A stretch of DNA of 34,482 bases, from contig JAJRTO010000037.1 of NCBI GenBank assembly GCA_024278235.1, forward strand, positions 1 through 34,482, read 5' to 3'. The translations under genes were made by a program, and so were the position numbers. This document shows positions 4,600 to 34,136 of the stretch, in pieces. The stretch comes from Candidatus Poribacteria bacterium (lineage in GTDB: Bacteria > Poribacteria > WGA-4E > JAJRTO01). Positions within the stretch are counted from its first letter, which is position 1. Each line of letters starts with the position of its first letter. Below the pieces are notes generated by a model, which saw only the letters and a program-made list of their open reading frames with translations, did no database searches and was not told the DNA's origin.

Positions 4600-5514
4600 A
4601 TGCAGAGCACACCGCAACAAATACCAGAAGATTTTCGATCTGGCTTCGTGAGTATTATTGGCGAACCAAATGTTGGGAAGTCTACACTGCTCAACTCTCT
4701 GATGGGGCAGAAGCTGGCGATTGTCACTCCCAAACCGCAGACAACTCGCAATCGGATCACGGGAATTCTCACAACGGACCGCTATCAGACGATCTTTCTC
4801 GACACCCCCGGGATTCTCAGACCATCCTATGAGTTGCACGAATACATGATCAAAGCGGCTTACAATGCAATGGCCGATGCGGACCTGATCCTTTACATGA
4901 TCGATGCAACTCACTCATCATCGGAGATTGAATCCGAGATTCTGGAGAAACTCAACGAGGGCAAACAGCCAGTGATCCTGCTGATTAACAAGATCGACCG
5001 GATCCCCAAGCCTGCTCTGCTGCCACTCATGGACGTATATGTCCACCGGTTTGATTTCGCTGAGATCATCCCGATCTCTGCCGTGAAGGGAGATGGTTTG
5101 GCGGATCTCCTGGAGGTGTTGCCAGATTATCTACCGGCAGGGATGCCCTATTACCCTACGGATATCGTGAGTGAACTTCCCACCCGTTTCTTTGTAGCGG
5201 AAACCATCCGAGAGAAAGTATTCCTCAGAACTCACCAGGAGATCCCCTATGCCACCACAGTCATGATCGAAGAGTTCAAGGAGCGGAGCGAGGGGAAAAC
5301 TTACATTCGAGCAGTGATCTACGTTGAACGTGAGTCACAGAAAGGAATCCTTGTGGGGAAAAGGGGAAGTGCCATCAAGGAGATCGGTCGATTAGCACGC
5401 GAGGAGATCGAGCATTTTCTGGAGGGTCCCGTCTTCCTCGAGCTTCTGGTGCTTGTACAACCGAAGTGGCGTTCCAGTACACACCGTCTCCGCGAGTTAG
5501 GCTATGCATTCTGA
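4600..5514 (+). CDS. era: GTPase Era (start probably at 4600 rather than the longest-ORF start 4501)
   Basis: 'GEPNVGKSTLLNSLMGQKLAIVTPKPQTTRNRITGI', 'DTPG', 'NKID' and C-terminal KH domain 'ILVGKRGSAIKEIGRLAREEIEHFLEGPVFLELLVLVQPKWR'. Confidence 0.95.
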   Translation: MQSTPQQIPEDFRSGFVSIIGEPNVGKSTLLNSLMGQKLAIVTPKPQTTRNRITGILTTDRYQTIFLDTPGILRPSYELHEYMIKAAYNAMADADLILYMIDATHSSSEIESEILEKLNEGKQPVILLINKIDRIPKPALLPLMDVYVHRFDFAEIIPISAVKGDGLADLLEVLPDYLPAGMPYYPTDIVSELPTRFFVAETIREKVFLRTHQEIPYATTVMIEEFKERSEGKTYIRAVIYVERESQKGILVGKRGSAIKEIGRLAREEIEHFLEGPVFLELLVLVQPKWRSSTHRLRELGYAF

Positions 5515-10800: not shown

Positions 10801-11487
10801 ATGAACCGACGTTGGTTGTATGGCGCAATCGGATTGATTCCGGTGATTATCGTCGCGCTCTTTCTCTATGCAAGGCAACCTATTACCACTGAGACAGATC
10901 GGCTGGCAGATCCCACAGGTTCTACGGTGCAGAGAGATCATGATGATTCCGGCCAAACTAAATTGTCACCCGCCGAGGCACGCATCACTGTCTCAGATCA
11001 AGAAATTGATAAAATCTTCGAGGAAGCGATTGCCTTTCTGGATCGTCTTGCATCCGGTGAGGCCGAAGCTCAAGAGTATGGTGACATCCGGGAAGAGACC
11101 ATTGAGACAGAGATGATTCGCGTAGAAGGCCCGATGTCTGAATCAACAGAATCGCTCTCAGATGGGATGGCTGAATCGATGGATGAGGAATCCGTAAAAC
11201 CCGAACTGGTCATAGATGAGTTTGTTGCCGCCCTGAGAAATCTGGATCTGGATACAATGCTCTCGATGGCGCGGGGACAGGCACGTGAGAAGATAGAACA
11301 GTTGCGCTTTGATGAGCTGCCACCAGAGGCCGAGATGATGTTTCAGCAGATCCAGCCAACCAATGGACGACTGGTGAGTGAGAACGAATTCAGGTTCAAT
11401 CTTGCGATGCCGATGGGCGATCAATCTCCTGAGATCGTGATGCACCGGGATGGTGGTCGCTGGTGGATCGACGAGATCATCGATTAA
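10801..11487 (+). CDS. Membrane-anchored hypothetical protein with possible DUF4878/NTF2-like C-terminal domain
   Basis: N-terminal hydrophobic helix 'WLYGAIGLIPVIIVALFLYA', acidic linker, C-terminal 'VIDEFVAALRNLDLDTMLSM...GGRWWIDEIID'. Confidence 0.6.
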   Translation: MNRRWLYGAIGLIPVIIVALFLYARQPITTETDRLADPTGSTVQRDHDDSGQTKLSPAEARITVSDQEIDKIFEEAIAFLDRLASGEAEAQEYGDIREETIETEMIRVEGPMSESTESLSDGMAESMDEESVKPELVIDEFVAALRNLDLDTMLSMARGQAREKIEQLRFDELPPEAEMMFQQIQPTNGRLVSENEFRFNLAMPMGDQSPEIVMHRDGGRWWIDEIID

Positions 11488-11501
11488 CAATCCTCCATCG
11501 A

Positions 11502-12875
11502 TCAGTCAAAGAACGTCAGATACGGCTTGCATTGTGCCTCACGTAACAGTAACAGCGCAAGCTCTCGGGCATGATAATCGCCCCACATGGATGATTCCCC
11601 GTTGGGAATGCTGCTTCCTTGTGGGATGTAATCCCAACCGTTGGGTCGATGGTAGACTGAGTGTAAGATAAGTCCCTGATGGTGTGGCTCCTCGGAAAGG
11701 TAAGGAGGAGACAATAGCGCCTCAGCCACCGTCATACCCGCTTGATAGTAGTGAGATCCTGCTTCCTGTCTCCCCCGGTTTTTCAGGTAGTTTCCGAGTC
11801 GGATCAACCCTTGAGCAGCAATTGCAGCAGCGGAACTATCGACTGGTTCGTGATCATTGAAAGGCTCGGCAGCGCGGTTCCGCCAGTCTCCCAGGTGCAC
11901 CAACCCCGGTGCTCCCGTATCCCAGTATGGAATTCCATCGGCCGCCGTATTCTCAATGTAGAAATCAGCCGTTGCACGGGCCGCTTTGATCATGTGTTTC
12001 GTCACCTGATCTTTCCCGCCGTAGGGTTCCAGTTCGCGATCATCGATGTTTTCGAAAAACTCCAACTGCTCCGCATAGCCTGTGATGACCCAGGCAAGCC
12101 CACGTGTCCAGGTCGTAAACGGTGAGTAGCCCTGTTGTGTGCTCGGACAGCGATAGTTTCCATCATTCATGTTGAAAATCGATTCATGAGCGACCCGCCC
12201 GCGTATATCATATGCGTCTCGTTCTTCCCCATAGTAGATATTGTATTCCGCTGTTGTCTTTGAATGCAGGATCAGACGGTGCAGCAGCGAGATGGGACGA
12301 TCTCCCTCCGCCATCAACACATGTCCAAGCTGGTGTGCAATGCCGAGAGCACGGAGCGAGCGGATCGTATCGGAAAAGAGCGAGTGAGGGCCATTGAACG
12401 AATAGATGAAACCGAGATCGTTTCTGATGGAAGACCAGCGATTGGCCTGGATGGCGCCCGAGGCTTTCAGTGCGAGTTCATAGAAGTTCATCTCCCACGA
12501 ATCAGCCGGGATTCGTCCCTCGCGCATCAGGCGACGCAGATTTCCATAGGTTGAGACATTGTTGAACCCATGATCATGGACTCCCACATGTGTTACGTGC
12601 GGTGCCATACACTCGACTGTATTCCGCCGGCCGATCTCCAGGAATTTTTCATCCCCGGTTGCATCAAACTGTAAAATCGCTGATCCAAACAGAAATCCCT
12701 GGGTCCACTCGGTCCAGCCGCGTGTGGTATAACACCCCTGGACCGTGAATACAGGGGTTCCTTGTGCGGGGTCCCATGTGTCCTCTATGGCAAGGATCTT
12801 GTGTCCAGAGAGTTCAAAGAGCCATTCTAACTGAGGTCGGAGTTGAACAGGTGTAATCGATTGATTGATGAGCAT
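11502..12875 (-). CDS. GH88-like unsaturated glucuronyl hydrolase
   Basis: 457 aa; 'TQGFLFGSAILQFDATGDEKFLEIGRR', 'YSPFTTWTRGLAWVITGYAEQLEF', 'GIPYWDTGAPG...EPVDSSAAAIAAQGLIRLG', matching the GH88/GH105 (alpha/alpha)6 pattern. Confidence 0.82.
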   Translation of the reverse strand: MLINQSITPVQLRPQLEWLFELSGHKILAIEDTWDPAQGTPVFTVQGCYTTRGWTEWTQGFLFGSAILQFDATGDEKFLEIGRRNTVECMAPHVTHVGVHDHGFNNVSTYGNLRRLMREGRIPADSWEMNFYELALKASGAIQANRWSSIRNDLGFIYSFNGPHSLFSDTIRSLRALGIAHQLGHVLMAEGDRPISLLHRLILHSKTTAEYNIYYGEERDAYDIRGRVAHESIFNMNDGNYRCPSTQQGYSPFTTWTRGLAWVITGYAEQLEFFENIDDRELEPYGGKDQVTKHMIKAARATADFYIENTAADGIPYWDTGAPGLVHLGDWRNRAAEPFNDHEPVDSSAAAIAAQGLIRLGNYLKNRGRQEAGSHYYQAGMTVAEALLSPPYLSEEPHHQGLILHSVYHRPNGWDYIPQGSSIPNGESSMWGDYHARELALLLLREAQCKPYLTFFD

Positions 12876-30229: not shown

Positions 30230-30278
30230 GATAGGCTCGTAATCTCAGTAGTTCACAATGCTTGACCTTCAATCCTCG

Positions 30279-30300
30279 GCTTGGATGGCCAAATCCAAGC
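30279..30300. promoter_or_regulatory. 8-bp perfect dyad (GCTTGGAT-ggccaa-ATCCAAGC) upstream of the efflux operon
   Basis: Read directly, about 50 nt upstream of the HEAT-repeat start codon. Operator or 5' UTR hairpin. Confidence 0.4.
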
Positions 30301-30542
30301 TGCAAAAATGCAGAAGCATAAATATGACGACAACAGGAGAGAGAACGTTTATATTTTGGCTCCTTAGATATAATTGTACTGTTATATCCCCTGAACTAGC
30401 AAGTAGGATTCGATAGGCACTTTGACATTGCATCCTTTGCATGAAGATGAGATAATCCAGTTTGGAAAGAGAGGAAATTCTCTACTTCCTCTGATCATTG
30501 ACGTTCCAGACGTCATAAAGTTTTGATAGGAGAGACATTTCT

Positions 30543-33989: not shown

Positions 33990-34017
33990 TCCAATTTGAG
34001 TACCTCACATTTTCGCC

Positions 34018-34068
34018 GTAGGAGCGTCTTCCTGGACGCGATCATCGTGGCCGGGAGGCCACTCCTAC
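34018..34068. repeat. REP/BIME-like element: two mirror-image GTAG-headed 25-nt hairpins separated by 1 nt
   Basis: Plus strand 34018-34042 GTAGGAGCGTCTTCCTGGACGCGAT; minus strand 34068-34044 GTAGGAGTGGCCTCCCGGCCACGAT. 19/25 identical, with stem-compensating differences. Confidence 0.8.
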
Positions 34069-34136
34069 CATAGAATTGTGATCTACTGAATCTGGACGCC
34101 TTCGACACACATCACACACTGGAACAGGAGAGTATC

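Follow-up and report, generated by a model that had tools for sequence, protein, structure and literature searches.

A GTAG-headed hairpin pair in a Candidatus Poribacteria genome is probably a REPIN-type core carried by a 91-bp MITE

The window analyzed here (the whole 34,482-nucleotide stretch of contig JAJRTO010000037.1, C424 in our numbering) belongs to a Candidatus Poribacteria draft genome (G000; 5.19 Mb in 536 contigs, 91% complete) and carries two GTAG-headed, REP-type hairpins close to its right end. Hairpin A (GTAGGAGCGTCTTCCTGGACGCGAT) occupies positions 34018-34042 on the + strand and the inverted hairpin B (GTAGGAGTGGCCTCCCGGCCACGAT) positions 34044-34068 on the - strand, and the single bp between them at 34043, the centre of the pair, is a C here and differs between copies; both hairpins are defined by pattern matches, fold and covariation. 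The arrangement given in the initial annotation, a 25-mer followed by C and an inverted 25-mer, matches the letters of the window exactly, and the correct term for it is an inverted repeat rather than "mirror-symmetric." With up to three mismatches allowed, the 25-mer pattern matches the window twice and is absent from 100 shuffles. As single-stranded DNA, the 51 bp have a minimum-energy fold of -13.5 kcal/mol (z -3.3) with two hairpins closed by GTAGGAG/CTCCTAC pairing, which is the three-way junction predicted earlier, and the A/B differences at 8/21 and 10/19 do preserve the stem as had been claimed. The same A-B pair is present in nearly all copies, so these differences at the window locus alone are not evidence of selection, which is why the covariation test (below) compares hairpin types.

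Comparison of the flanks of the genome copies gives a longer repeat unit of 91 bp, in the order CAGTACCTCACATTTTCGCC, hairpin pair, CATAGAATTGTGATCTACTG. The initial annotation had put the unit at 34018-34068, which is too narrow: the conserved mobile unit in the window runs from 33998 to 34088 (+ strand) and is flanked by 5-bp duplications. Its left arm (33998-34017, +) has 56 genome copies with at most three mismatches (control 2) and its right arm (34069-34088, -) has 54 (control 0). The outermost 12 bp of the arms (33998-34009 and 34077-34088) are terminal inverted repeats, CAGTAnnTCACA, whose consensus is identical at 10 of 12 positions. Further copies of the 25-mer, for which a genome search had been proposed, are plentiful, as the host genome contains 135 hairpins against two for a reversed control pattern, mostly as one A-B pair type in a constant 26-bp register. 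Hairpin A, left arm and right arm number 54, 56 and 54, respectively, a ratio of about 1:1:1. The length is exactly 91 bp in 33 of the 44 distinct two-armed copies, and these 33 have a mean identity of 97.2% to their consensus; the element is short, has no transposase gene and is present in about 54 near-identical copies. We also note that at one locus (L110, contig C374) the hairpin pair occurs twice in tandem with about 60 bp between the copies, and that the repeat is absent from the related loci gathered via the neighbouring URO-D-like gene.

The window copy, called family 1 here, lies between AATTT (33993-33997) and AATCT (34089-34093), a target-site duplication with one mismatch, and its own first base is changed from the consensus C to G. 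Ends this short and imperfect were beyond the power of a general search for inverted repeats in the flanks (none of 12 host loci passed), so target duplications were used for this genome. Exact 5-bp duplications flank 30 of 44 distinct copies (those of the approximately 54 with both arms and flanks read), where 3.4 are expected and the maximum was nine in 2000 trials in which the right flanks were shuffled among copies. No excess was found among the 44 for duplications of 1-4 or 6-9 bp, and the duplicated 5-bp site has the consensus ARNYT. An open frame of at least 120 aa spans only 4 of 38 copies, compared with 139 of 190 random stretches from the same loci. There have thus been about 54 insertions of CAGTAnnTCACA-ended elements at 5-bp ARNYT sites, mostly intergenic, with duplication of the site.

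Terminal inverted repeats together with a short duplication of fixed length are the hallmark of DDE-type transposition. Target duplications, on the other hand, are not a known product of IS200/IS605-type (Y1) transposition (PMC2817692). The CAGTAnnTCACA ends and the exact 5-bp duplications therefore argue for a MITE moved by a DDE-type transposase and not for a free REP or BIME. A search of the host assembly with PF01609 found four DDE_Tnp_1 genes, none of them with CAGTAnnTCACA ends, and distinctive end patterns, searched for a transposase-bearing element in this 91% complete draft, returned only further MITEs; we therefore infer the transposase of the MITE from its products.

The same CAGTAnnTCACA ends and 5-bp duplications also enclose two other hairpin cores. 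Family 2 elements (113-114 bp, core GTAGTCAGGCACG...CGTGGCTCACTAC) have exact duplications in six of seven copies. Family 3 elements (about 91 bp) contain an CCGTTGGATTGCCAAATCCAACGG-type hairpin pair and have exact duplications in loci L325 and L056; the search pattern for this family was loose and also caught copies of families 1 and 2, and its total of 40/64 is set aside. No fewer than three distinct hairpin-pair cores are thus carried by one set of ends. The GTAG head is missing from the family 3 cores, which means that a hairpin core is not necessarily a REP. A truncated relic of a related element is present in the window itself at 30246-30310 (+): one end, CAGTAGTTCACA, is there, next to it comes a CTTGGATGGCCAAATCCAAG hairpin like that of family 3, and the second end is missing. 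The host has a second MITE, with TATACTGAGCGCA ends and TA at its termini, and most of its copies contain the GTAGGAG pair; in loci L387 and L395 the same arms hold an unrelated, non-REP core. The core of the TA-flanked L387 copy includes a tandem repeat of about 8 bp (TGTCTCAC).

Nested arrangements of this kind recur in other genomes. In G014, a member of another family, GTAGGAG pairs lie inside elements with three other end sets. Those with TATAGTGAAC ends are about 137 bp long and have TA at the termini, those with TACCAATTCTAATA ends measure 153-189 bp, and 143 bp is the length with GGTGGTGCATAAATG ends. No Y1 transposase was found in G014. Locus L077 of G019 looks similar, with TAGTGAAA ends and perhaps the same backbone as the TATAGTGAAC elements. 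The hairpins also occur in other settings: G036 has many single REPs, most of them armless, and G012 and G049 contain tandem REP arrays.

What the GTAGGAG core is can be judged from its relatives. Hairpins of the form GTAGGAG..TCC..CGA number tens to hundreds in many genomes of four families of the same class (f1, f2, f6 and f7) and are essentially absent from families f3, f4, f5 and f8. RAYT genes in the class often have GTAG-headed hairpins in their flanks, and several of these hairpins share exactly this head-loop-tail type; one RAYT gene of G012 has a GTAGGAGCGACCTCCCGGTCGCGAT hairpin on both sides. Four hairpin-flanked RAYT proteins of relatives score 122-137 bits against NCBIfam NF047646 (REP-associated tyrosine transposase; cut-off 80 bits). 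Three RAYT genes of relatives (L130 in G044, L135 in G005 and L147 in G022) are flanked by GTAG hairpins of different types, namely GTAGGTGCGGTTTGCAACCGCACC, GTAGGCGCGGCATCTTGCCGCGC and GTAGGCGGGGCATCTTGCCCCGC, respectively, which suggests RAYT-specific REP types within the class. Across 16 hairpin types from the class, head, loop and tail are invariant and stem changes occur on both sides of the stem; since a pattern was used to choose the types, a constant head and loop are in part built into the sample, but this does not hold for the pairing, with 94.8% of cells paired. Stem covariation among these types is 0.842, compared with a shuffled mean of 0.176 and slid controls of at most 0.178. 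The core has the GTAG head beside an imperfect palindrome that marks REPs, and is an extragenic, inverted pair in high copy; it is not its own unit of movement, as the unit ends at the arms and the duplications lie there. By this comparison of sequences, the GTAGGAG core most likely descends from a REP pair.

The situation of RAYT-like genes in the host differs from that in its relatives. None is visible in the window, as the initial annotation stated, and in the host assembly (91% complete) we found neither a close match to the class's hairpin-flanked RAYT nor a RAYT gene flanked by GTAGGAG hairpins of the sort present in relatives. The proposed check for a Y1/HUH gene did find Y1-type genes on contigs C178, C317 and C405, those on C178 and C317 lacking GTAGGAG hairpins in their flanks. 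The C178 protein is the sole host protein above the NF047646 cut-off (103.7 bits), and its RAYT-like Y1 gene (11133-11654, within 10982-11733 of locus L108) is bounded by an inverted repeat of another kind, the 16-bp GAAGCTTTAGCTGGTC, and by no GTAG hairpin, so it was set aside as the cognate RAYT. A solo copy of GAAGCTTTAGCTGGTC lies at 5453-5468 of the same locus, and gene and repeat together have the look of a TIRYT accompanied by a small repeat family of its own, a layout resembling that described in PMC3733652. The C317 Y1 protein, a weaker NF047646 match, was likewise set aside, having no GTAG hairpin nearby. On C405 (locus L031, 1246-1686), an IS200-like transposase frame leaves its family after about 55 residues, and this gene is probably broken.

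The REP-type hairpins, the RAYT flanks in relatives and the stem covariation make the core look like a REPIN cassette nested in MITEs. We consider it probable that the pair is the REPIN-type core of the 91-bp MITE, captured and then multiplied by DDE-type transposition. The core would be a REPIN, that is, a GTAG REP pair of the kind that flanks RAYT genes in relatives, and it would have entered an already existing MITE, perhaps when a RAYT acted on the central part of the palindrome in single-stranded form; no arms joined directly without a core were seen among the copies. After entry, the core could have multiplied by riding the MITE's DDE-type transposase, with no need of a RAYT. A wider form of this idea, that REPINs of the class repeatedly enter MITE centres, escape their RAYT and persist and multiply without a cognate one, is tentative, and we hold it as possible rather than probable; the nesting of this REP type in at least five MITE backbones (two in the host and three in G014) is in keeping with it.

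A different origin of the hairpins within the same MITE has to be weighed. MITEs are often two ends of an IS joined together, and hairpins A and B could be subterminal sequence of the left and right ends of a parent IS, their likeness to RAYT-associated REPs being convergence; the consistent difference between A and B, and their constant orientation to the arms in the copies seen, would fit this. We nevertheless think it unlikely, because the same arms carry unrelated cores, the GTAGGAG..TCC..CGA hairpin is also found in unrelated MITE backbones of the host and G014, and this hairpin type adjoins RAYT genes and occurs as armless single copies in G036.

The initial annotation read the pair as REP/BIME-like, with any RAYT acting in trans, and an ordinary REPIN/BIME population moved in that way, its arms being conserved flanks copied along, is an explanation that we regard as very improbable. 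Much of that reading holds, in that the pair is GTAG-headed, inverted and present in many copies and has RAYT-flanking homologues in relatives, and the NF047646-positive protein of the host leaves a slight possibility of RAYT activity there. The pair itself, however, is not the mobile unit: movement by a RAYT in trans is contradicted by the exact 5-bp duplications at the ends of the 91 bp and by the equal numbers of hairpins and arms, and the state of the host's RAYT-like genes (above) also speaks against it. It is harder still to believe that selection has spread the element and maintains it chiefly for a role at gene ends, as a functional RNA or a terminator. The window element lies 8 bp past a stop codon, folds strongly as RNA (-42.1 kcal/mol, z -5.9) and shares the intergenic bias of the other copies, but a terminator scan was negative with no terminator-like T run, and Rfam gives only a far sub-threshold microRNA match. 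Target duplications moreover account for the spread without selection, and selection against gene disruption would yield the same intergenic bias.

The usual account of REPINs is that of long-lived repeats dependent on a single-copy RAYT. Here, a repeat whose movement is usually credited to a dedicated enzyme appears to be transported by mobile DNA of a different kind, and a REPIN cassette on a DDE-type transposon in genomes where no cognate RAYT was detected would represent a second route of spread. MITE-borne REPINs offer a testable account for RAYT-less REP families, and REP counts per genome are not necessarily a measure of RAYT activity.

The element resembles ordinary bacterial MITEs such as Correia/NEMIS, RUP and Nezha in its short length, lack of coding sequence, terminal inverted repeats and target duplications. 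Those elements depend on a related transposase acting in trans, whereas here the parent transposase is deduced from its products, the CAGTAnnTCACA ends and the 5-bp ARNYT duplication; to our knowledge, the cores of those MITEs have not been described as RAYT-type REP pairs. With REPINs and BIMEs the core shares the GTAG head, unpaired GA, covarying stem and GAT/GAC tail, as well as two inverted hairpins in high extragenic copy (PMC3116915; PMC2817692), and its hairpin layout is that of the GTAG-1 REPs (PMC3733652). It differs from them in that the mobile unit exceeds the pair, ends in terminal inverted repeats and is bordered by target duplications, and in that the host assembly yielded no cognate RAYT.

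A MITE with a GTAG REP has already been described, QMITE2 of Coxiella burnetii (PMC5896051), which is likewise a bacterial element with terminal inverted and direct repeats and a GTAG REP inside, located mostly in 3' untranslated or intergenic DNA. QMITE2, however, is 150-190 bp long with direct repeats of 7-11 nt, where the element here has 91 bp and a fixed 5-bp duplication; its REP is described as a target of IS1111, where here a complete inverted REP pair is the core; and the present system has several cores inside one set of ends. In Anabaena variabilis, GTAG-15 REP dimers lie regularly inside long TATAGGA...TCCTATA palindromes (PMC3733652, section 7), as GTAG dimers do within a longer palindrome here, although both the REP family and the ends are different. 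That section gives no duplications or transposon reading and reports that REP-less palindromes were not found in Anabaena (PMC3733652). Given these two precedents, what is new here for REPIN-cored MITEs is the target-duplication evidence, the several backbones and the exchangeable cores.
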